DNA of 64,000 nt from Gautieria morchelliformis (lineage: Eukaryota; Basidiomycota; Agaricomycetes; Gomphales; Gomphaceae), in the NCBI GenBank assembly GCA_015179125.1, contig WHVA01000359.1, positions 1-64,000 on the forward strand. Direction: 5' to 3'. The first letter of the stretch is position 1. The number at the start of each line of letters is the position of its first letter. The notes below the pieces were generated by a model. That model saw only the letters and a program-made list of their open reading frames with translations. It was not told the origin of the DNA and searched no databases. Of this stretch, positions 1,330-16,323 are shown piece after piece. The translations under genes were made by a program, and so were the position numbers.

Positions 1330-4300
1330 TCACCCCCCTTCTAGCGTGCTGCGTCCTCGAAGCGCGGGACACAAGGGATTGAAATGCCAGCGAGCGGATT
1401 CGGCGAGGGGCACCTGGATGTGTCCTATAGAACTCCCGGAGTTTGTCAGGAGCGGAAACATCTTGCTCCGGGACCCAAGAATTCTCCTCGTACCCATACC
1501 CTTCCCATTTCACGAGGAATTGGAGTCGTCCTCGCACAAACCGGCTGTCCAGGATCCGTTCCACCACGTAGTGCTCTTCCCCATCTACAATTTCTGGCGG
1601 AGGTGGCGGATGAGCCTTCCGATGTGGAATTGGGTCCTCAAGCATAGGGAGTAACTTCACCACGTTGAAGACGGGGTGGAGGCGGGACATGGACATCGGA
1701 AGTCGGAGGCGGTATGCATTCCGTCCAACCCTCCGCGTCACTGTGAAGGGCCCAAGGTAGCGGTGGGCAAGCTTCTGCGAAGGGCGTGTGGTGCGGATGT
1801 CACTTGCATCTAGGTACACCTTGTCTCCAACTTGGTACTCTGGGGCAGGAACCCGGCGTCGGTTGTAGTACCTTGCCATGTCATCCTTGGCCTTCGCAAG
1901 GGCCGACTTGGCTTCCGAAAGGGTGGAGTCCATGCGGTCTCGGAACTCGTTGACCGTCTCGAGTCGGGACTCAGCCTGGCGTGGTTCGAAGCCCATCCGC
2001 GGGTGTCGTCCGGAGTCAAGCATGAAGGGAGTCTGTTGTGTGGCGGAATGGACATGGTTGTTGTATTGGAATTCCGCCAGCGGAAGTAACTCATCCCAGT
2101 CATCCTGCCTCTCATTGACAAAGAGGCGGAGATATTGCTCTAACTCCTGATTGACCCGTTCCGTCTGTCCGTCACCCTGCGGATGGTACGCTGTGGTGGT
2201 AGCCAGCTTTATGCCGAGCAGGCGGTAGAGCTCCCGAGTCAGTTCCGCGACAAACTGCGGACCTCGGTCGGAAACAACTTGCTTCGGGAGCCCATGCAAC
2301 TTCCAGACATGTGCAAGGAACAGGCGGGCCGCTCCGAGGGCTGTGATCGTCGTGTGCGTCGGAATGAAGTGGGACACCTTGCTCACCGAATCCACGACGT
2401 TCATGATCGCATCGTAGCCATGAGACTCTGGGAGTTCAACGATGAAGTCGACACTGATGGTGTCCCAGCAGGATTCGGGAATCGGGAGCGGAACAAGTTC
2501 TCCGACGGGCGGACGTCGTTGCGCTTTGGTTCGGAGACAAAGGTCACACGTCTTCACGTACTGTCCGATGTAGCGGGACATCTGAGGCCACCAGTAATTC
2601 CGAGCCACTAACTCCAGCGTCTTCCACCTGCCAGCATGCCCAGCGACCCGTGTGTCATGGTGCTGGGACACGATGCGACGGCGGAGGTCCGCCCCACCCG
2701 GAACATAGACCTTGCCTCTGAAGTGGAGCAGTCCATCACGTTCCGACCATTCCGCTGCCCGTACAGACCGTGAGTGCCCTTTCCGGAGTTCCTCCACTGC
2801 CTTCACCACCGACTCCTCCTTCTCTCCATTCCGGTACTGCCTCCGGATATCCCGGAGCATTTCCGCTTCCGCCCCAACTGCAGTTACTCCTTCTAGGGCA
2901 CGGATTGCAAAGAGACTTGGGCGGAGCAGTGTCATATCCGCGTTGTCTCCACTTCCGCTTCCGTGATCCGCGCGGCGGGATAGGGCATCGGGCTTGCCCA
3001 TGGTGCGGCCGGGGCGGTGGTGGAGCATGAAGTCAAACCGGGACAGGTGTAGGGACCACCGTGCTTGTCGTCGGTTCAGCTTCTTAGACGTGCGGAAATA
3101 CTCGAGGTTCTTGTGGTCTGTCCAGATCTCAAAAGGGCATAGAGCACCCTCGAGGAAGTGTCGCCACTCCTCCAGCGCTCGGATGATTGCCAGCATCTCC
3201 TTGTCATGGATCTCATAGTTCCGCTCGACCGGACTAAGGCTCTTAGAGAAGAAGGCAATCGGATGCCACCCCCCACCATCTTCCGATGACTGCTGTGACA
3301 AGACCGCTCCGGTAGCTGCGTCGGAAGAATCTGCCTCGACTCGATAAGGGCGAGAGTCGTCGGGAAAGATCAGGACCGGAGCGGAAGTGATCAGCTCCTT
3401 GAGTTTGTCAAAGGAAGCCTGTTCCGGCTCTCCCCACCGCCATCCAACCTCCTTCTTGGTGAGGTCGAAGAGGGCACGGGCGTGGCAGGAGAAGTCCTTG
3501 ATGAACCGCCGGTAGAAATTGACAAACCCAATGAAGGACTGGACCTCCTTCTTGTTTCGCGGCACGGGCCAATCCGATACACCGGAAACTTTGACTGGGT
3601 CCATTTCCACCTTCCCTTCCGACACAATCACCCCAAGATACTCTATCCGCGTCCGCTCAAATTCGCACTTTTCCGGCTTGAGACACAGGTTGTACTCCCG
3701 GAGCCGTTCCAGCACTCTCCGCACGACTTCCCGATGTTCGGACATTGTTTTCGTGAAAATGAGGATGTCATCGAGGTAGACGCAGACAACCCCTTCTGCT
3801 ATCATGTCACGGAAAATGTCATTCATCATCGTCTGGAATGTGGCGGGACTGTTGGTGAGGCCAAAGAACATGACCTGTGGCTCAAAGAGTCCTCGATTGG
3901 TGCGGAATGCGGCCTTCCACTCGTCTCCCTCTCGGATCCGGACATTGTTGAAGCCCCAGCGGACATCCAGCTTAGTGAAGTACCTCGCCCCGCGGAGTTG
4001 TGTGATCAGTTCGGAAATGAGTGGGATGGGGTACCGGTTCTTGATCGTGATCGCATTCAAGGCCCGGTAGTCCTGCACAAGTCTGAGCGAGCCATCCTTC
4101 TTCTTGATGAAGAACACCGGAGATGCCATGGGTGACTTGGAGGGGCGGATCCTCCCTGTACGGAGGTTTTCCGCAAGGAATGCATCGAGCTCTACCTGCT
4201 CCTTGGGTGACAGCGGGTAGACCTTGCAGTTGGTGGGCTTTGACCCAGGCTCCAACTCGATGGCGTGGTCCCACAGCTTCCGTGGAGGCAGGGTATCAAA

Positions 4301-5239
4301 CGACTCCTTGGAAAAGACGTCCTCAAACTCCCGCAGGTACTCCGGAATTTCCGCCTCCACTCTATCATACCTCTTAGAGGCTTCAGCAAGGCGTTGCGAA
4401 ATATTTCCGGTGGCGCGGATGTGTTCCGCCTCCGGCGGAAGGTTTACGTACAGCAAGCGCTCCCCTTCCGTCAGAGTGTCTTCCAGGCCGAGTCGGATGG
4501 CGTCGGAACCGGAATTGGAAGGGGGATCCGGGTCAAATTCCGCTTCCGAGTCTTCTTCTGCAAGCAGTGGATGGGGGCCGGAACGACATGTCTGTATGAG
4601 CCGTTCGGTCTTCCGCTGCTCCTGGCGCTCCTTCCGCACTTCCGACCGGCACATGTGACACTTGGCTGGACACCGACTCATCAGTACCTTCCGAGTCTGC
4701 CAATCGATCTCCGGGTTGTGCTCTTGAAGCCAGGTAAACCCGAGGATGATGTCTTGCTTCCCCAGGCTGGTGACAGCGAAGGAAGTGCGTTCCGAGTGTC
4801 CATCGTAGCGGAGAATTGTGTCCACTATCTCGGTGATGGACCCTGCCTCATTGGGGCTTCCATCCACATTGAACACCGGGATTGCACGTTGCAACTTCCG
4901 CGTGGTCAGTCGGTTCCGTTCCACATAGTCCCGGTCCATAAACTGACCAGTGGCCCCGCAATCGACAAGGGCGGGTCCGGATTTGACTTCCGCCGTATCG
5001 GTCGTCTGGATCTCTACCTTAATGACTAGTGACTTGGGGCCAGGGGTGGCAGCAACAACATAGCGCTTCGGAAGGCGTCTCTCCCAAGGGCGGATGCGGG
5101 ATGGACGGGGTGTCAGATTTGGTTTTTGTGTGACTTTATCCGGTGGGTCTGTACGAAGTGAGGGGAGTGGGGGCTTTTCATTCTCTACTTCAAGACAGGC
5201 AAACCGGTTATGTACAGGCAGCAGGGGCACACATCTCAC
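1109..5239 (-). CDS. pol: Gypsy Pol polyprotein (PR-RT-RNase H-IN-chromodomain)
   Basis: This frame of about 1,376 codons encodes the enzymes that copy and integrate the element. Visible motifs, counted from 5239, are: protease DCGATG near residue 93 (Cys replaces the usual Ser of DSG); reverse transcriptase YLDD near 486; an RNase H core beginning VEADSSDAATG near 638; an integrase HHCC finger near 858-900; the integrase D,D,E core (SVDF near 932, VSDRGPQF near 992, then Glu in QTERVNQELEQ); and a chromodomain near 1222-1275 (VERILDSRF, LVKWEGYGYEENSWVPE). A Ser/Asp-rich tail is read from the LTR. The frame lies at -1 to gag, overlaps its end, and has no ATG at the overlap (the codon at 5239 is GTG). 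It is therefore probably made by -1 frameshifting or reinitiation. Confidence 0.93.
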   Translation of the reverse strand: MRCVPLLPVHNRFACLEVENEKPPLPSLRTDPPDKVTQKPNLTPRPSRIRPWERRLPKRYVVAATPGPKSLVIKVEIQTTDTAEVKSGPALVDCGATGQFMDRDYVERNRLTTRKLQRAIPVFNVDGSPNEAGSITEIVDTILRYDGHSERTSFAVTSLGKQDIILGFTWLQEHNPEIDWQTRKVLMSRCPAKCHMCRSEVRKERQEQRKTERLIQTCRSGPHPLLAEEDSEAEFDPDPPSNSGSDAIRLGLEDTLTEGERLLYVNLPPEAEHIRATGNISQRLAEASKRYDRVEAEIPEYLREFEDVFSKESFDTLPPRKLWDHAIELEPGSKPTNCKVYPLSPKEQVELDAFLAENLRTGRIRPSKSPMASPVFFIKKKDGSLRLVQDYRALNAITIKNRYPIPLISELITQLRGARYFTKLDVRWGFNNVRIREGDEWKAAFRTNRGLFEPQVMFFGLTNSPATFQTMMNDIFRDMIAEGVVCVYLDDILIFTKTMSEHREVVRRVLERLREYNLCLKPEKCEFERTRIEYLGVIVSEGKVEMDPVKVSGVSDWPVPRNKKEVQSFIGFVNFYRRFIKDFSCHARALFDLTKKEVGWRWGEPEQASFDKLKELITSAPVLIFPDDSRPYRVEADSSDAATGAVLSQQSSEDGGGWHPIAFFSKSLSPVERNYEIHDKEMLAIIRALEEWRHFLEGALCPFEIWTDHKNLEYFRTSKKLNRRQARWSLHLSRFDFMLHHRPGRTMGKPDALSRRADHGSGSGDNADMTLLRPSLFAIRALEGVTAVGAEAEMLRDIRRQYRNGEKEESVVKAVEELRKGHSRSVRAAEWSERDGLLHFRGKVYVPGGADLRRRIVSQHHDTRVAGHAGRWKTLELVARNYWWPQMSRYIGQYVKTCDLCLRTKAQRRPPVGELVPLPIPESCWDTISVDFIVELPESHGYDAIMNVVDSVSKVSHFIPTHTTITALGAARLFLAHVWKLHGLPKQVVSDRGPQFVAELTRELYRLLGIKLATTTAYHPQGDGQTERVNQELEQYLRLFVNERQDDWDELLPLAEFQYNNHVHSATQQTPFMLDSGRHPRMGFEPRQAESRLETVNEFRDRMDSTLSEAKSALAKAKDDMARYYNRRRVPAPEYQVGDKVYLDASDIRTTRPSQKLAHRYLGPFTVTRRVGRNAYRLRLPMSMSRLHPVFNVVKLLPMLEDPIPHRKAHPPPPPEIVDGEEHYVVERILDSRFVRGRLQFLVKWEGYGYEENSWVPEQDVSAPDKLREFYRTHPGAPRRIRSLAFQSLVSRASRTQHARRGVMSGDTLFSISSSDTTPSSDSISDSASGSDSISASAFGNDSASGRTSTSSVRLASSTPISDFRPGTVSEIKRLA

Positions 5240-7843: not shown

Positions 7844-8160
7844 TTGACCACTATAGTTGTCTATAGAGGGGGAGGGTGGAAATAACCTATGTATCTACAT
7901 GTACAATAGTTATTACATAATCCCAGTGGGCCCCTTAGGGACCCACTGTACAGTTTATGCATGGGAACCGGCCAGCGGTTCCCATCGCATCTTACTCTTA
8001 CCTGTCACTATGTAGCATTCAGAATACCACTCATTGGTCAAGTTCTGCAGTGCCCTTGTGATACAAGGTCCTAAGATCAACATCTTTACACAGGGACATG
8101 TATCAATATCTATTTTGTGACATATACAGACATAAATACAATAGTAAATGAAGCCATATT
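7844..8160. other. Noncoding tail after the split ORF
   Basis: No gene is seen. A purine-rich tract (gagggggagggtgg) at about 7864-7878 resembles the polypurine tract that precedes a 3-prime LTR, followed by an imperfect hairpin (cccagtgggccccttagggacccactg) near 7922-7948. I could not define an LTR here. Helitron leader microrepeats begin near 8161. Confidence 0.3.
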
Positions 8161-8244
8161 TAAGCAGCTGCTGTCATTAATTTTAGCAAAGTCAGGATTA
8201 TCTATTTTTTTGGAAAATGTCAAAACAAATGTCCAGTACATTTA
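8161..8244 (-). repeat. Helitron leader microrepeat, left of the Tc1-like unit
   Basis: One unit of about 84 bp starting taagcagctgctg and containing attttagcaaagtcaggatt. Units of the same kind resume at 15,303. Deleting 8245-15302 plus one TA joins the two sides exactly at a unit boundary (gtacattta/agctc, compare gtgtattta/agctg at 15,375-15,387). This is therefore Helitron leader split by insertion. Confidence 0.7.
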
Positions 8245-8341
8245 CAGCTGTTTCGGGTACACAAGGCAGAGTATGAAACTCATGCCGCGCGACGCCACCT
8301 GCAAAGATCGCACTGTAGCTCGTCAACCGTTGAAGAATAAG
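8245..8341 (+). repeat. Left terminal inverted repeat of the Tc1-like unit
   Basis: The first 23 bp are identical to the inverted right end, and about 97 bp can be aligned with scattered changes. It follows TA at 8243-8244. Confidence 0.75.
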
Positions 8342-8777
8342 ACATTAATTTTGGTAGATAGTTTTTCCTGTATATTATATACAATTTCATATAAAAATTG
8401 TAGCTTATCATGAAATATTGAATTTTTGGAAACTTGAGCCTATATGCATCATTGTGACCCCAAATAGCATCAATCTGGGAGGTAGCAGGCTCAAATAAAG
8501 TAAGGGTGTGCATTTAGAAAGTAAGGCCTTGCATGTATAAAGTTCTTGAACACTAATAACTAGTGTATAAGAGAAGTGGGGGGCTGCATAGTTTCCCAGT
8601 CTTTTAGCTTTCTATAAAGCAAAAATTCTAATTGAGAGAGTGTACTACATGTACATGTAATAAAATATATAATAAGCAGACACAAGTTTATACTTGCCTT
8701 GACTTCCCATCTTGTGTGGACTACACGCAACACATCACGTGATTCACATGACATTACATATCTTGTACTTGTACCAT

Positions 8778-10000
8778 ATGCCGCACTTTCTGCCTGAACA
8801 CCAACGGCAGCGTCAAACCTACTCTGAAGACCTTCGAAAACGAGTAATATATCAACGGTTCACGTGGGAGAAGAAGATCGACGAAATCGCGCTCGATCTG
8901 AACATGTCAAAACATGTGGTCGAGCGCATCCTCCATCTATGGTGTACTACTGGCGAGGTTATGTCGCAGGAACCTGGCAAGAAAGGCAAAAGGAGGAAGA
9001 TCATGACTCAAGAGGAATTGGAGGCAAGTAACAGGTCTTTCTGCCGTAGATTAAATGTACTCATAACTCCTTATCCTAGTTTCTTCTTCAACTTACAGAG
9101 GAGTTCCCTGACCTATATCTGGATGAGATACAGGGCCTATTGCAGTATCTGTATGGTGTGACGGTTGGAATTAGTACTATATGGGATACAATGACAGGCC
9201 TCGGCCTCACACGCAAAAGGTATGCCTCAATATATTCTTTTGCGTCATCCAATCTAATCAGCCTCTTTGTAGCTATCCAAGGTTGCTGCCGAGCGTAATG
9301 CAAACCTTCGAAGTCTATACTGTTTCAGGATTGGTCACGAGAGTCCCGAGCATTTGGTATTTGTCGACGAGAGTCGAATTGATTGTCGCACCACATATCG
9401 CCTGAATGGATGGGCTGCGAAGGGAAAAAGAGCTTCAGTAAAAGCTCGCTTCGTCCGAGGGACTGGGTAAGTACCTTCTCATTTGTTCATTTGCTGCTGA
9501 CTTACGCATGATCTAGTTATTCAGTCCTTCCTGCCCTCAGCGCTGAGGGTATCATATATTCCGACGTGCGTGAAGGCGCCTACGATATGGATGCATTTGT
9601 TCAGTTTATCCATGACCTGATGCCCCATATGAACCCATGGCCCCTACCACGCAGCGTGCTTGTGATGGACAATTGCGCCATTCATCATTCAGAAGAAGTG
9701 GCAGAACTTTGCCAGAAACAGTAAGTTTTCTTCTCCTAGTCTTCTGTATATCTCAAGGGAGGCTGAATCTTATGACAGCGGTGTCCGGCTATACTACTTA
9801 CCGCCTTATTCACCAGACTTCAACCCAATAGAGGAACCATTTTCTTTCCTGAAAGCCCACCTCCGGTGCCATGGTTCAGACTTTCGTGCAGCGATTGATT
9901 CTAAGGATGAGGGGCAATCTTGTTGTTCTTTCATAGTGCTCTTGCCACCATTACTCCAAAACACTGTGAAGGCTGGATGACCCATTCAAGGTATTTGTAG
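8778..10000 (+). pseudogene. Tc1/IS630 (DD34E) transposase, interrupted
   Basis: Start MPHFLPEHQ at 8778. The N-terminus is a helix-turn-helix region (TYSEDLRKRVIYQ, ALDLNMSKHVVERILHLW). The catalytic core is spread over five exons: FVDES (first Asp, about 9358), VMDNCAIHH (second Asp, about 9665), and [13 protein letters not shown] (Glu, 34 residues after the second Asp). Splices at 9028/9098, about 9470/9516 and about 9721/9778 keep frame with GT-AG ends. The exon 2-3 junction (donor 9220, acceptor near 9278) cannot be spliced in phase, and the C-terminus shifts frame before a family-like end ([12 protein letters not shown], stop at 10,000). The key residues survive, but the gene is probably dead as it stands. 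It would cut and join the inverted repeats of the unit around it. Confidence 0.8.
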
Positions 10001-10606
10001 ATGCAAGCAGCCTTGTAGTAGCAGTGTAGCACTTCATCACAATTGTAACCTCATATGCCCCTCTGAAAATTATGTTGCAAGGTTTTTATTAGCTAGTCAG
10101 TGTTGCCATGACAAGCTCAGAGTTGGGTTGAGCCTGTGTTTATTCAAGCTAGATGACTGGTTCAGTGTCACCAGATATTCAGGGCTCATGTGGCATCATC
10201 ATGTTTGATGTCACTTCAAGGATCATGTATAAGAATGTACACATGACATTCTGACCTGAGGGGCCTGTTGGCTGACCAGTGTGGCCAGACTATTCAGGGC
10301 CCGTGCGGCACTGTCATGTTTGATGTGTAGTAACTCGGTTTGGGAAAGTAGGAAGTTATAGACCAGTAGTTCGATGGATGGAACCTTCAGGAGACTATTT
10401 GGTGTTCTCCTCAGTGATAGTCAACATTAGTAATATAAGGGAAAGCTACCTATTTAGTGTTCTACATGCTTTTTCAGTTAAATACTACGAAGATACACTA
10501 TTAAACTCACCTCCTCAGTGATAGTCAACACTGAGGAGGGAAGGGCATGCATTGGCCTGTTTCACTCGCATATACGAAGTTCTGGCATGCACGTCAGGCA
10601 ATGGTG
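10001..10606. other. Noncoding, repeat-bearing stretch
   Basis: No gene. It holds minisatellite unit 1 (10200-10328) and a short inverted repeat, ctcctcagtg (10511-10520) against cactgaggag (10529-10538). A partial copy of the same motif lies near 10,415-10,435. Confidence 0.5.
10200..10328 (+). repeat. Minisatellite unit (about 115 bp), block 1
   Basis: The unit begins catgtttgatgtcacttcaa and includes gaggggcctgttggctgacc and gtggccagactattcaggg. One full copy and the first bases of a second are present. The same unit recurs twice in tandem at 12,051-12,269. The array has been split by about 1.7 kb that includes a gypsy fragment. Confidence 0.75.
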
Positions 10607-11061
10607 TAAAGGTCAAAGATGACATGGCAAGGTACTACAACCAACACCGGGTTCCGGAGTACCAAATTGGAGACAAGGTATATTTGGACACAAGTGATAT
10701 CCGCACCACATGCCCTTCACAGAAGCTTGCCCACCGCTACCTTGGGCCCTTCACAGTGATGCGGAGGGTCAGATGAAATGTGTACCATCTCCGACTTCCA
10801 AACTCCATGTCCCACCTCCACCTGTCTTCAATGTAGTGAAGTTGCTCCCAGCACCGGGGGATCCAATTCCAGGCTGGAGGTCTCATCCGCCACCTCCACT
10901 GGAAATTGTAGATGGGGAAGAGCATTATGTGGTGGAACAGATCCTGGAGAGCCAGTTCGTGCAAGGACGATTCCAATTCCTCGTGAAATGGGAAGGATAT
11001 GGGTATGAGGAAAATTCATGGGTCCCGGAGCAAGACGTCTCTGCCCCGGACAAACTCTGAG
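10607..11061 (+). pseudogene. Gypsy pol fragment (integrase end and chromodomain)
   Basis: Closely matches the 3-prime part of pol in the 850-7,078 element, but on the plus strand. It starts inside the integrase C-terminal region (DDMARYYNQHRV), lacks the Pro-Ala pair of the intact copy, shifts frame near 10,770 and then carries a recognisable chromodomain (VEQILESQF ... LVKWEGYGYEENSWVPE) ending about 11,061. Everything 5-prime of this has been lost. Confidence 0.88.
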
Positions 11062-11166
11062 AGTTCTACAGGACACACCCTGGAGCCCCTCATTGAATCC
11101 ATTCGCTAGCCTTTCAATCCCTCGTGTCCCGTGCTTCGAGGATGCAGCACACTAGAGGTGGGGTGA

Positions 11167-11588
11167 TGTCAGGGAACACCCTGTTTTCCAGTTCCGACCA
11201 CACCAAATTCTGACTCCATTTCCAACTCCGCTTCCAGTTCTGCTTCCATCTCTGACTCCGCTTTCAGAAATGATTCCGCTTCTGGGAGAACTTCCACATG
11301 TTCTGTTTGCCTTGCCAATTCCACTCCAATTTCTGACTTCCGCTCTCGGAACAGTGTCGGAAGTCAAGCGACTCGTGTAGTATGTGGCATCAAGGGTCGA
11401 TCAAGGGTCAGGGACGTCAGGGGGATGCAGGGTTGATGGCGAGTGCCGAGTGTTGTCCCTGGCTGCAGACTAGTGTAGTATAATACGGGCTCACTGACAT
11501 TGGGGGTCCTTAGACTTTTCTCTTTGGATTTCCCCTTGTCAATTGGGTGGTAGTGTGACCTCCACAGCCAGCTAGGGTTGCCCTTACA
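11167..11588 (+). repeat. 3-prime LTR of the truncated gypsy copy
   Basis: Runs from TGTCAGGGAACACC to GTTGCCCTTACA, about 422 bp, and is clearly related to the reverse complement of the 480-bp LTR at 850-1329 but shorter and diverged. No matching duplication can be tested because the 5-prime end is missing. Confidence 0.85.
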
Positions 11589-12050
11589 GGTGTGCAGTCA
11601 GGATACAAATAGATGAAATGCATATACAATAGAATAAAGGAGGAGTGCGAACATGAAACAATGTGGGGGAAAGAGCACAAAGGTACCTATGCAAGAAAAC
11701 ACGCTTTCAGACCTGCATACATGTTACCCTGCATGGACTCTTGGTCTGCTGGGTCAATCTCACATGATCTACAGGTAGGACGTCCCGCGAATGCATCCTG
11801 GCCATAGGAACACCAAGAGGGGGTTGAATTGGGAAGGTGAAAGGGCCAGTGATGAACATCATGCCAGGTAAAGGATGTTGATCGTGTTTGATGGTGTGCC
11901 TATTGGTGAATGATGCGAGTAGTGAATGGTCATTTCGGTGAATTCAGCGAAGAGAGAACGGAGTGAACATAGAGGTAGAGGGATAAAAAGGGAAAAAGGG
12001 GGTAACTTAATACAAGAATAAATGGGTCATGACACACATATGCACCCAAC
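11589..12050. other. Noncoding spacer
   Basis: No gene, terminal repeat or strong structure seen. Base composition is balanced. Short open frames here have no recognisable content. Confidence 0.4.
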
Positions 12051-12269
12051 ATGATGTCACTTCAAGGATCACATATAAGAACGTACACATTTGATATTCT
12101 GACCCGAGGGGCCTGTTGGCTGACCAGTGTGGCCAGACTATTCAGCCCGTGTGGCATTGTCATGTTTGATGTCACTTCAAGGATCACATATAAGAACATA
12201 CATATTTGACATTCTGACCTGAGGGGCCTGTTGGCCGATCAGTGTGGCCAGACTATTCAGGGCTCATGT
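12051..12269 (+). repeat. Minisatellite units 2 and 3 (about 110 bp each)
   Basis: Two tandem copies of the unit at 10,200, starting at about 12,051 and 12,161. The third is interrupted at 12,269 by a foldback element. After that element the unit sequence seems to resume (ggcatcatcatgtttg, from about 12,623). Confidence 0.75.
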
Positions 12270-12620
12270 CACTGGAGGCATATAAAAATTTTCTGGTCTG
12301 AAAAACTATCCAAAAACCTGTAAAGATATTCCAAATTTTTTTAGTGTTTTTAATGTAAAAAAACTTTGACAAAATTTTGTGCTTTTTTTAGAATTTGTTG
12401 AGCAAGAAAATTGTAAAAAAAATTTAAAGTTTTTTGCAGGGTTTTTTTATGTGTTTTTATAAGTTTCTTTGTGAAAACACAAAGAAACTGATAAAAAACC
12501 CTGAAAAAAACTTTGAACTTTTTTACAATTTTCTTGCTCAACAAGCTCTAATAAAAACATAATTTATTACAGTTTTTTGAACAGTTTTTCAGACAAGAAA
12601 AACTTTATATGCCTGCAGTG
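12270..12620. mobile_element. Foldback MITE, 351 bp
   Basis: The ends are inverted: CACTGGAGGCATATAAA on the left and CACTGCAGGCATATAAA as the reverse complement of the right. Most of the element is one long AT-rich inverted repeat with its centre near gtttctttgtgaaaacacaa (about 12,462-12,490). There is no coding capacity. It interrupts a minisatellite copy. A clean target duplication is not evident (left ...catgt, right tgggg...). Confidence 0.75.
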
Positions 12621-12702
12621 TGGGGCATCATCATGTTTGCATCATCATGCTTTTGTTCCTCACTTCAGTGTTTCTTTCCATGAACTCAAGATGTAGATTT
12701 CC

Positions 12703-14676
12703 CTAGCACTTGTGACAAACTATAGCCTTCTTGGCCCCCTTCTTTGAGCGACTCAACGGCGAGCCATGCGATGCTGGTGATGGGGGCCCCGAGGCTCTCC
12801 TCTCCGCAAATCTACCGTGCAGAAAATCGAACCTGGAATATTGGAGGCCTTGAGCCTCTAACTCTGCGAGCCAAACACCGATAGTGGGAGTGGGAGCGTT
12901 CTGCAAGAGAGGGTTGGCCTTGACATCGGGACTTGCCACGCGATCACTAGATGGCGGCGAGCGCGATCGCATTCTCTTTGGCGGTCGCAAGGAGGGGCGG
13001 AGGATCTGGATAAGCTCAGGGGGGAAGTTGATGTTGATAGGAGGAGGTGGGGGGATCTGCTGAGGTGCTGGGGGCTCACTGAAATACCATGCTCCACCTC
13101 GACGCAAAGGAGGCTCAGGCATTGAATTCGCAATGCCAGCGTTCACATGAAAGAACTTGAAGTACTCCACCTTCGGTGGGGTGTTCAGATCAACGCCTGG
13201 CGCATTTTTCAACTAATAATAATAATTAGTAAAAGAAGAAAAGAAGAAAAAAAAGAAAGAAAAAAAGAATAAAAATTTTCTCGCACCAGCTCGAGCACCC
13301 ATATCAGCTCTCCTTCGAAGTTAAGCACTTTGTGGTACCCATTAAGGGCACGTACTAAGCATATTGAACCTGGATGTTGTTTGCAAGACCAGGCGGCGAG
13401 TAATTGCTTGAGTTGAGCCTGGTATGCCTCGGTCTTCGTGTCATCGAGGCCGTGTTTATGGAGGGGGTGTTTGGTTTGGTCGGGTGGTTTTGGCGTGGGG
13501 AAGGGGTTAACAAGCTCTTTCTTCTTTGCCTTCGGTTTACTTGTGGTGACGGTCTGAGCCCTGACCGCTTCCTCTAAAAACTGGAAAAACTATAAAATTG
13601 CAATTGATTAGTGCAAAAATGTAAAAGAAATAAAAATTACTTACCTTGGGCATGAGAACAATCTCAATGGCGGCTTCAGAACCCCTTTTTGCCACCTGAC
13701 TGGCCCACTCATCCTTCAAAGTGATCCAATCGTTCTCGGTTTCCAGGGCGAAACACCATTTGGCCGGATCCTTGTAGAAGTGGGTCACCAGACCCGCTCG
13801 CTTCTCCTCGGGTATGGCGTAGAGCCCTAGGACCTCGTGGATGGTAGTCTTCACGATGTGGAGGGTGCTTGTCGGCTTGAGAAAATGCGTGCGATTGACA
13901 ATAACGCCGACCTGGTTACGAAAAGGGATGATAAATTTCATTTCTGTAGATAAAGTGTCAGGTAAACATCACAAATATACAATAAAACACTTACTATCAG
14001 GCATAGAAACCACTGCCTTTGCTTTGGCCGCCGCTTTACCCTTCTTCTTGGGAGGCTCGACCGGAGAGGAGAGCGGTTCCATGTCGCTGTCGGGATTATC
14101 GTCGCTGCTGGGGGACTCGAAGTCTTCTGACAGGTCTGCGACCTCTTCCTCCTCGTCCTCTTCTCTCTCAGAGTCTCCAAACACATCGGCACGCCCAAGG
14201 TCATCCTCACTGACTAACCCCAACCCTGGCTCTCGATCCCCCTCATCCTCCTGGTCCCCCTGGTCCCCCTCGTCCCCCTTTTGCTGGTCCTCCTTGGGAA
14301 TTGTGCTGAGAACGAGGCGGCCAACGATAGCGTCAGCGGCACCGGTTTTCCTGGTTGCAGGGTCGCCGGACTTGGAGGGCCCTTTGGAGGCAGAGGTGGA
14401 TGTTGGGGCAATAGAGGGAAGGGGGTCTTTGGCAACGGGTGGTTTGGAGGTGGAACCATCGTCAGTAGCCGGCACCTTGCTGCCTGCCTTCGTCTTTGAG
14501 GCAGGAGGTCGAATTGGGGGGATCACACCAGCGTCACGCAGTCGAGCTGACAGTGTGTGACTACACTTGCCATCGACGATGAGAGCAGGGTCAACCGAGT
14601 CCCGCTGGCGGGTTTTCAGCATGTTTGAATCCCCAAGTAGCTCAGCTTTAGCTTTCTTTTTCTTTTTGCCAGCCAT
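12703..14676 (-). CDS. Uncharacterised 594-residue protein, four exons, inside the Tc1-like unit
   Basis: Exons are 13995-14676, 13645-13943, 13287-13580 and 12703-13212. All three introns have GT-AG ends, and the phases add up to an uninterrupted 594 codons from ATG at 14676 (MAGKKKKKAKAEL). The N-terminus is Lys-rich and could be a nuclear signal. Residues about 140-225 are strongly acidic, followed by a second Lys-rich patch (PPKKKGKAAAKAK). The middle (FIIPFRNQ ... AWSCKQHPGSICLV ... FEGELIWVLEL) looks globular. The C-terminus is Pro-rich and ends IVCHKC. I do not recognise a family. Its position between the inverted repeats suggests a passenger gene or part of an undescribed element. That it keeps intact splice phases argues for recent selection. 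Confidence 0.6.
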
Positions 14677-15205
14677 GAGAGGGTTATAGATAAAGCAGAA
14701 GAGAGGAAGGTGTCGAGTGGTTGTGGTAGGAGGGAAGGCTGCTCGTCGTGTGTGGCAGGAGCGAGGCTGCAACGAGGCGCCAGGCAGTCACGTGACTCAG
14801 TCGCACTACCCCGCGTCATAGCACAACGCGCTGCTGTCATGCCAGGTATGCTGAAACTACAGGTATTATATTTTGTTATGTATAAATATGTACTTTATTC
14901 TTATGTAAAGCTGAGGACTTGATGTAGAAGGCTAAAAGGGCTGGGAGCAGGCAAACAGACATGCACATGATGCACCTCTTCCCCCTTCCACAGCCAGATG
15001 ATTTCACCCTTGTTTTCTGTTTAAAACATTTGTATATGTATATTACTATAATCTGACCAATTTATGGCCTTTATTGAAAGAATTTGAGGTCATAATGATG
15101 CATATAAGTGAAATTATCCACATATTAAATAAATCATAATAAGCCAAAATTTGTATATATAATGTTAGCTAATATATAGTACAGATTATATACAAAGTAT
15201 AAACC
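14677..15205. other. AT-rich noncoding stretch
   Basis: Upstream side of the 594-residue gene, so its promoter should lie here. The sequence becomes AT-rich from about 14,860. No coding frame or repeat was recognised before the right inverted repeat. Confidence 0.4.
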
Positions 15206-15302
15206 CTTAATCTCCAATGGTTGTGGAGATACAGGTCGATTCTTGTAGGCGGCACCGGGTGGCATGAATTTCATACTCCGCCTTGTGTACCCGAAACAGC
15301 TG
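15206..15302 (-). repeat. Right terminal inverted repeat of the Tc1-like unit
   Basis: Inverted copy of 8245-8341 that ends in CAGCTG at 15297-15302 and is followed by TA. Confidence 0.75.
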
Positions 15303-16323
15303 TAAGCTCAAGTTGTTATTAATTTTAGCAGAGTCAAGATTATCTATTTTTCGAAAAATGTCAAAAAATGCACTGTGTATTTAAGCTGGAGCTGTTGTCA
15401 ATTTTCACAAAGTCAGGATAATTTATTGACATCTATCAAAAAATGTCAAAAAAGTACAGTACATTGAAGCAGAAGCCGTTATTAATGCCCAGCCGAAGCC
15501 AGAGAAGCCCAGAGAGTGACAGAGAAACCCAGAGCCCAGCCAAAGCTATGGCATAGTAAGCCAGCCACCAGTATAGGTAAGCAGCTTTACAGTAAATAAA
15601 ACAACAAAACAAACCACATTTAAAACAGAACCTATTGCCATTAATTTTAGAAGAAACTTATTGATGTCTATTTTCAAAAAAAAACCTGAACAATATATAT
15701 ATTAAAATACTTTTTTTTCAGCAAGCTCTTGGGATTTTATTTACATCTATCTTCGAAAAAAAAAAATCACAAAAATATAAAGCACATATGTGACAATACA
15801 ATATGATGAAAAAAAAAAGGAACCACTAAAATTACAAACACAAATAAAACAAAATTCATGGCAATGCATTAAAAAAGAGACATTTCCTACCAATAGAAAG
15901 CCAGCCAAGCAAACCAATAGATAGCCAGCCTGCCAAAGCAATAGACAGCCAGCCAGCTAAAGGAGGAGACACCAGACAGAGCAGACAGAGCAAACAGAGC
16001 AGACAGCAGAGAGAGGAATTGCCAGTCAAACAGATTCCTAGTGTTCTAGGCTTACCGTTCTGCCTTTATATACCGCCCGCGCATGTCATGCACGGACCAC
16101 GCTCGCATATGCACGCGATGCTCGCGAACGGGTCATGTGACCGCTGCGCAGCATTCATGCTCACAGCTGCGCCACTCGCCGCTGACCTAAAGAGAGAGCG
16201 CTGGAGCTGGCAGACCAGCGTAAACCGGTGATAGGGGCTCGCGGCTGCACCACGACAAACTAATGACCAAGCATTGGTCAGCATGGCCACAACCTCCCAC
16301 CGAGCTACTTTCATATGGCAGAA
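15303..16323 (-). mobile_element. 5-prime leader of a third Helitron copy (truncated)
   Basis: On the minus strand this starts at about 16,322 with TC and aligns to the 5-prime ends of the two Helitrons downstream (AAAG-AGCTCGGTGGG-GTTGTGG; GACCAATGCTTGGTCATTAG; GCAGCCGCGAGCCCCT). It then becomes AT-rich, with simple repeats (agacagagc-type, 15,960-16,010) and about 80-bp microrepeats from 15,303 to 15,470. It continues at 8161-8244 on the other side of the Tc1-like unit. Its Rep/helicase ORF and 3-prime end are absent. Confidence 0.65.

Follow-up and report, generated by a model that had tools for sequence, protein, structure and literature searches.

Organization of the unit at 8245–15302

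The DNA analysed here is a window of 64,000 nucleotides from Gautieria morchelliformis, a truffle-like mushroom, and the coordinates throughout are positions on its forward strand. The window contains a mobile unit with inverted ends, in which two intron-bearing genes converge on a spacer. The features are as follows.

8243–8244, no strand: left TA target duplication (joined-flank match)
8245–15302, no strand: whole mobile unit, subfamily A, 7,058 bp
8245–8465, plus: left terminal inverted repeat, 221 bp, 77% identical to the right repeat
8778–9026, plus: transposase exon 1, N-terminal part
9101–9220, plus: transposase exon 2, with an HTH_33 stretch that scores below the Pfam cut-off
9273–9467, plus: transposase exon 3, with the first triad D, FVDES
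9518–9721, plus: transposase exon 4, second D, VMDNC
9780–9997, plus: transposase exon 5, with the triad E, NPIEE; reading frame disrupted close to the C-terminus in the window copy
10525–11060, plus: Ty3-like retrotransposon fragment, SH3_Tf2-1 and chromodomain by Pfam; common to other A copies
12270–12638, no strand: small fold-back (MITE-like) insert, inverted repeats I2–I4
12703–13212, minus: second gene exon 4, where the SAM-like C-terminus starts; shortened and with a frameshift in the window copy
13287–13589, minus: second gene exon 3, Cys/His motif C-x2-H-x4-C
13645–13943, minus: second gene exon 2; the Ramaria homologue has a predicted PB1-like fold here
13995–14676, minus: second gene exon 1, acidic; conserved RQRD..DP..I.G.RSRTPS motif
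15082–15302, minus: right terminal inverted repeat, 82–85% identical to the B ends compared
15303–15304, no strand: right TA target duplication (joined-flank match)

The transposase matched the Pfam family DDE_3 (E = 5.6e-29, 101.3 bits against a cut-off of 28.6), and 34 residues separate its second D from its E; the match and the spacing together bear out the DD34E transposase reported in the initial annotation. An HTH_33 match (E = 3.3e-4, 20.6 bits), the candidate for an N-terminal helix-turn-helix DNA-binding part, fell under the cut-off of 25. Several database matches of the transposase bear the name Tc1-like transposase, and of the features of the Tc1/IS630 class, a DDE_3 transposase, a TA target-site duplication, and terminal inverted repeats are present. 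In the window copy, the transposase is frameshifted near the C-terminus, and the phase of the splice between exons 2 and 3 is uncertain.

The second gene lies on the minus strand, convergent to the transposase. The initial annotation had described it as a four-exon frame of 594 codons with all phases intact. The four exons are indeed open in phase, but our splicing gives 597 codons, and compared with other A copies such as C537, C356, and C195, the final stretch is truncated and in the wrong frame, so that the SAM-like C-terminus is lost in the window copy. Because of the frame damage in both genes, the window copy is a decayed one and not an intact autonomous element. In C329, a copy with D-type ends, the second gene is open with our splicing.

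Part of the spacer between the genes in subfamily A has been enlarged by the Ty3-like fragment, recognized in a Pfam scan that covered two retro-like ORFs, and by the fold-back element, which is missing from the C382 copy (the copy jumps from unit position 4025 to 4395). Another copy, C308, has further insertions and reaches 13.2 kb. The spacers of different subfamilies do not match each other.

Target site and terminal inverted repeats

The unit starts with CAGCTGTTTCGGGTACACAA at 8245 and closes with the inverted copy at 15302, each directly bordered on the outside by TA, as had been noted. For an empty-site test, 120 bp of each flank were joined through a single TA into a 240-bp query. The first look gave 864 candidate places in the genome; 40 were scored, and all 40 matched over 240 of the 240 bases with 95–96% identity and a single TA at the junction. 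Since the joined flanks match every scored place end to end, the unit was inserted once, into a high-copy repeat; the single-TA empty site rules out a construction by two adjacent insertions. The claims that the unit had moved as one piece, that an empty site with a TA join exists, and that removal of the unit with one TA restores the interrupted repeat were all upheld at these 40 places.

The ends are inverted as noted, but a length of about 221 bp at 77% identity was measured instead of 97 bp. The second gene and the transposase occur together in six diverged subfamilies, and ends were found for five of them (A–E). The terminal inverted repeats are about 200–221 bp long in eight A units and 282–518 bp in six B units, and are also present in C, D, and E; a search for inverted ends of the F copy (L054) found none. 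TA flanks both sides of 12 of the 14 A and B units and also borders the three units read from C, D, and E. The left repeat of the window unit is 67–72% identical to the compared B, C, and D ends and 59% identical to that of E. The unlike ends of subfamily A suggest a hybrid origin, a point that the sequence distances do not settle. A 60-base query made of three tandem 20-base ends gave no matches.

Association of the second gene with the element

Tc1/mariner elements are known as short elements with a single gene, and longer cargo is usually thought to lower their mobility. In the Gautieria genome, all 29 facing end pairs that were found enclose the second gene, and 28 of them also enclose transposase exon 1; the best 40 candidates were scored per end search, and short derivatives may lie among the unscored ones. 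The 29 pairs span 3.9–15.1 kb (minimum 3,867 bp, median 7.06 kb), and none has the spacing of 1.5–2 kb that, according to the initial annotation, would have refuted cargo status. A typical short Tc1 element (1–2.5 kb, one gene) is therefore rejected as a description of these pairs. Seventy of the 128 ends found are unpaired. In unit C992, the second gene is present and no transposase was matched; unit C146 is without the last two transposase exons.

A transposase exon 1 lies no more than 15 kb away from 47 second-gene loci, and at 43 of these the two genes converge (P about 7.5e-22, with 1/4 expected). Of all 77 second-gene loci, 60 have an end in the correct orientation at up to 4 kb or a transposase that converges on them at up to 15 kb; the gene is mostly associated with such ends or such a transposase. 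The remaining 17 loci have neither, although one counted among them (C658:12598) in fact sits behind a B end and a B transposase; conversely, C537:128818, counted among the 60, has as its sole link the transposase belonging to a nested A copy. The 7-kb unit is a genuine mobile element, one among many copies of a cut-and-paste transposon with a second gene. Of the two possibilities raised initially, an undescribed large Tc1-like element is supported by the 29 pairs, whereas a small element swollen by insertions describes part of the spacer but not the unit. The suggested passenger gene does travel in the unit, but as a standing, selected gene of six subfamilies it is not a chance passenger.

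Between B and D, the dN/dS of the second gene is 0.16–0.18, as low as that of the transposase, and the sequence comparison indicates that both genes are under purifying selection there. The transposase of C-type copies is near that of A (76–79% in exon 1) whereas their second gene is far from it (50–53% in exon 2), which points either to different rates of evolution in the two genes or to an exchange. Seven A copies were each compared with the window; CpG-context transitions make up 55–63% of the base differences in every case, and the family therefore appears subject to methylation pressure.

Two full-length Sphaerobolus transposases are 57–61% identical to that of the element, and no match of the second gene was found in Sphaerobolus in database searches scoring about 7,990 candidates each. 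Given these transposases, the enzyme may not depend on the second gene everywhere.

Predicted folds of the second protein

With the same number of candidates scored per search, the second protein was found only in Gautieria, in one Ramaria protein, and in three JGI proteins on short contigs; one search missed P0004–P0006, members of its own query, which makes absence elsewhere weak evidence. A Pfam scan of eight members gave no family at E 0.001, including no TET/JBP dioxygenase and no recombinase, and no significant sequence match was obtained in the PDB. In predicted structures, the middle part appears PB1-like and the C-terminus SAM-like, resembling at the fold level the PB1 domains of aPKC and Cdc24 and the SAM domains of Scm and tankyrase, respectively. 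The confidence of the models is low (mean pLDDT 44.5 and 46.6), and the best E-values in the Foldseek searches were 0.013 and 0.33; the top SAM-like matches were the Scm/Ph and Scm/Sfmbt SAM domains. Compared with such PB1 and SAM proteins, the second protein has in addition an N-terminus that is long and acidic, as well as a Cys/His motif; no fold match covers either of them.

Probable role of the second gene

The unit belongs to a family of large two-gene Tc1/IS630 transposons, and we consider it probable that the second gene encodes an oligomerising accessory factor for the element. The standard plan of the family comprises ends beginning with CAGCT, long inverted repeats, a TA target, and cut-and-paste movement of the Tc1/IS630 type; the DD34E transposase gene begins some 0.5 kb in from one end, and the second gene, which converges on it, some 0.6 kb in from the opposite end. 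The window copy is a decayed member with a spacer enlarged by the two inserts. The second protein, with its PB1-like part, Cys/His motif, and SAM-like part, would serve the element itself, most likely as a self-assembling factor that unites the transposase or the two ends, 6–8 kb apart, in one complex; alternatively within the same role, it may keep the element active.

The Ty3-like fragment, the fold-back insert, and copies such as C308 would fit an originally small Tc1 element that grew through later insertions unrelated to it, with a trapped neighbour as the second gene; we give this hardly any credence, since the 29 end pairs found (best 40 candidates per end search) all enclose the gene, none being shorter than 3.8 kb, and rule out a swollen short element, and since subfamilies with non-matching spacers share the gene, on which purifying selection acts between B and D. 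It is also unlikely, though less so, that the second gene is a true passenger, beneficial to the host or neutral, that was captured and merely hitch-hikes. The 17 loci untied to ends or transposase would agree with this, as would the lack of a known transposition function and of a Pfam family, but the position and convergent orientation are kept across subfamilies, the constraint between B and D equals that of the transposase, and no host parent gene is visible (weak evidence, with about 7,990 candidates scored per search).

A somewhat stronger, still minority possibility is that the second protein acts as an anti-silencing factor against methylation or heterochromatin rather than as a part of the transposition complex. 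Such an activity has been described or proposed for plant Vandal elements and for fungal transposons with TET genes (PMC12730594, in part), and the CpG-context transitions and the predicted likeness to the Scm/Ph and Scm/Sfmbt SAM domains point in the same direction. Returning to the accessory-factor explanation, we tentatively extend it to a two-component machine, in which the transposase would need, or be strongly helped by, an element-encoded PB1/SAM polymer bringing together ends that lie 6–8 kb from each other, and in which separate Tc1 lineages in Gautieria would have fixed different second genes, either the PB1/SAM protein or a FunK1 kinase. If this is true, the polymer would let a normally tiny class of elements carry genes. 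A fungal two-gene lineage with at least six diverged subfamilies, under selection where measurable, offers a natural system for studying the role of accessory proteins in Tc1 transposition.

Comparison with known elements and a sister family

Typical Tc1 elements share the DDE_3 DD34E transposase, the TA duplication, and the inverted repeats with the Gautieria unit, but they average about 1,300 bp and have just one ORF according to the sections consulted of PMC7325037, whereas the second gene is present in all 29 Gautieria end pairs found, none of which is shorter than 3.8 kb. Inverted repeats of several hundred bp occur in some Tc1 elements such as Minos, according to the same sections. The ciliate elements Tec1/Tec2, TBE1, Sardine, Thon, and Anchois are described, in the portions of the literature consulted, as combining an IS630/Tc1-type transposase with extra genes, as the Gautieria unit does: Sardine measures about 6.7 kb, has inverted repeats of 425 bp, and contains as many as four ORFs (PMC3464196, in part), and Tec and TBE have three ORFs, their inverted repeats being about 700 bp long (PMC7325037, in part). 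The extra genes of Sardine, Thon, and Tec are given there as a tyrosine recombinase and otherwise hypothetical ORFs, while in the Gautieria unit, which has a basidiomycete host, one intron-bearing, PB1-like/SAM-like gene was found.

Fungal KDZ, IS3EU, EnSpm, hAT, Harbinger, Plavaka, and Helitron transposons have captured TET/JBP genes, which are kept in many families, and TET-bearing IS3EU families also have an alpha-kinase oriented opposite to the transposase (PMC12730594, in part). These transposons resemble the Gautieria unit in having an extra gene beside the transposase, but the second protein of the latter has no TET match, and the words mariner and IS630 do not occur in the main text of that article as consulted. 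Multi-gene Tc1 elements are thus already known in ciliates; searches of the open-licence PMC literature gave no description of a two-gene Tc1 element in fungi.

A sister Tc1 family in Gautieria has a FunK1 kinase gene beside its transposase. Its inverted ends (L052, L058) were looked for and not found, and a boundary search with L058 ran into another repeat. Two copies of the repeat are 98% alike across all 3,001 bases compared, and thus its length is at least 3 kb. This family raises the possibility that transposons carry part of the lineage-specific FunK1 kinase expansions seen in mushrooms.

Boundaries and insertion of the unit

The initial annotation placed the ends of the Tc1/IS630-type unit at 8245 and 15302, inverted relative to each other and each bordered by TA, and all of this was borne out on re-reading the sequence. 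The terminal inverted repeat extends over about 221 bp with 77% identity. The main features of the window unit and its surroundings are as follows.

8125–8244 and 15305–15424: insertion target, within a repeat of very high copy number (864 candidates at first look)
8245–8465 and 15082–15302: terminal inverted repeat
10525–11060: Ty3-like fragment (SH3_Tf2-1, chromodomain) between the two genes, common to other copies of subfamily A
12270–12638: MITE-like fold-back insert, about 370 bp long, absent from copy C382

The predicted empty site with a single TA was found in the 122-Mb assembly (1,113 contigs, with the window as contig C403): the joined flanks (120 + 120 bp, one TA) matched 240/240 bases at 95–96%. 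The best 40 of 864 candidates were scored and all 40 matched over 240/240 bases, which led us to conclude that a single event placed the unit in a high-copy repeat that was already there. Fourteen A and B units were read from end to end, and 12 of them had TA on both sides; one unit had lost 9 bases at its right end and another 2 bases at its left end. TA also bordered both sides of the units read from C, D, and E, three in all.

The window unit is a decayed copy. Its transposase has a frameshift near the C-terminus. The 594-codon frame reported for the second gene is indeed open (597 codons here), but the gene is not intact: compared to other A copies, its final stretch has slipped out of frame and is shorter, and the SAM-like part is thereby missing. 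All four second-gene exons are open in the D copy on contig C329, according to our own splicing. Since the Ty3-like fragment is common to other A copies, it became part of the mobile unit after insertion. In copy C382, unit position 4025 joins 4395, providing a natural empty site for the fold-back insert.

Linkage of the second gene to the transposase and the ends

The transposase matches Pfam DDE_3 (E 5.6e-29) and, weakly, HTH_33, and its second D and E are separated by 34 residues. The second gene lies on the opposite strand, convergent with it. Four end queries (left, right, C-type, and D-type) were searched against the genome, and the best 40 of 114, 126, 57, and 120 candidates, respectively, were scored, so that the resulting counts of at least 128 distinct ends and at least 29 facing neighbor pairs within 20 kb are lower bounds and short derivatives may be missed. 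All 29 pairs found enclose the second gene, answering the question of whether other units with the same ends carry it. Their spans range from 3,867 to 15,139 bp (median 7,058); the spacing of 1.5–2 kb that would oppose cargo status did not occur among them. Seventy of the 128 ends had no partner within 20 kb, a figure that takes contig edges, truncations, and unscored partners together. Transposase exon 1 was detected within 28 of the 29 pairs. The exception is a B-type unit (G000:C992:129924–137308, L044) that retains the second gene and its two ends; having no transposase match inside, it represents a copy without its own transposase.

Merging the 155 matches listed gave at least 77 second-gene loci. 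Among these matches, a transposase exon 1 lay within 15 kb in convergent orientation at 43 of the 77 loci, an end facing the right way lay within 4 kb at 47, one or the other was present at 60, and neither at 17; the gene thus mostly accompanies such ends or such a transposase, whereas the initial annotation had considered a location mostly outside such ends as the opposing case. Where a transposase exon 1 in any orientation lay no more than 15 kb away (47 loci), the two genes converged in 43. Conversely, a convergent second gene within 15 kb accompanied 41 of the 77 transposase loci ranked closest by exon 1 and 1 of the 72 ranked as more distant, the two classes being separated by our own rank cut-off among the best 150 of 259 exon 1 candidates scored. 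One locus counted among the 17 (C658:12598) does sit behind a B end and a B transposase, and one of the 43 (C537:128818) was paired with a transposase belonging to a nested A copy. In the latter region (G000:C537:128818–145979), a complete A unit (131137–139346) has an E-type match to the second gene on one side and a transposase exon on the other, suggesting that the A copy is nested in an E-type element.

Divergence and constraint among the subfamilies

The second gene is common to subfamilies A, B, C, D, E, and F, and in the joined alignment the members are 25–53% identical to the D copy. DNA matches between A and B copies (E 1e-10) are confined to the ends, the transposase, and the second-gene exons. 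Between B and D, dN/dS was 0.16–0.18 for the second gene (dS 0.74–0.84) and 0.17–0.20 for the transposase (dS 0.34); synonymous sites were saturated in most other pairs. Third codon positions had changed the most in all pairs, clearly so among A–D and only slightly in pairs with E.

In the second-gene tree, E and F are set apart from A–D (100/100). The transposase tree groups A–D (94/100) and groups E and F with one Sphaerobolus protein (88/93), and a sister Tc1-type family on contig C981 falls outside both. Among the units compared, the first 220 bases of a unit's own two ends match at 96–100% in subfamilies B, C, D, and E and at 77–80% in A (three units). The right ends of A are B-like (82–86% to B) and the left ends are not (69–73%). 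Judging from these sequences, subfamily A may have arisen as a hybrid between two elements.

Proposed role of the second protein

Transposases of the Tc1-type superfamily bind inverted repeats and cut and paste at TA, and the transposase of this family would likewise bind the long inverted repeats; insertion of the element at TA is shown by the window unit. The starts of both genes lie 0.5–0.6 kb inside opposite ends, from which we infer that transcription of each gene probably runs inward from the end nearest to it. PB1-like and SAM-like folds, both predicted in the second protein, are typical of partner binding and self-assembly. Together with a constraint equal to that of the transposase between B and D, they suggest that the protein likely serves the element itself. 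It might bridge or stabilize the complex of the two distant ends, or defend expression. A dedicated anti-silencing factor seems to us a less likely alternative, and what speaks for it is the decay of the A copies: CpG-context transitions make up 55–63% of the base changes that separate each of seven A copies from the window, suggesting methylation pressure. An identical TGA stop in transposase exon 1 of A copies C195, C537, and C146, taken with these transitions, fits either methylation-driven decay or the movement of defective copies by transposase in trans.

Earlier reports describe multi-gene Tc1 elements in ciliates (PMC3464196, PMC7325037), which resemble the Gautieria family in having more than one gene. 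In fungi, extra genes are borne by DNA transposons that belong to other superfamilies (PMC12730594). Our searches of open-licence PMC articles turned up no fungal Tc1/IS630 family with two genes.

Other observations

The sister-family transposase, about 48% identical to that of the window in exon 1, has a convergent FunK1 fungal protein kinase (Pfam PF17667; L052:2350–3155, G000:C981, minus strand, two exons scored). The ends of this element were looked for and not found, so the kinase is a candidate component of the mobile unit. The 1,179-bp segment holding the kinase was matched at at least 40 places (best 40 scored), 35 of them at full length. In the D copy on C329, the end of the second gene is duplicated in inverted orientation (L056:4160–4480), on the transposase side of a simple-repeat spacer.
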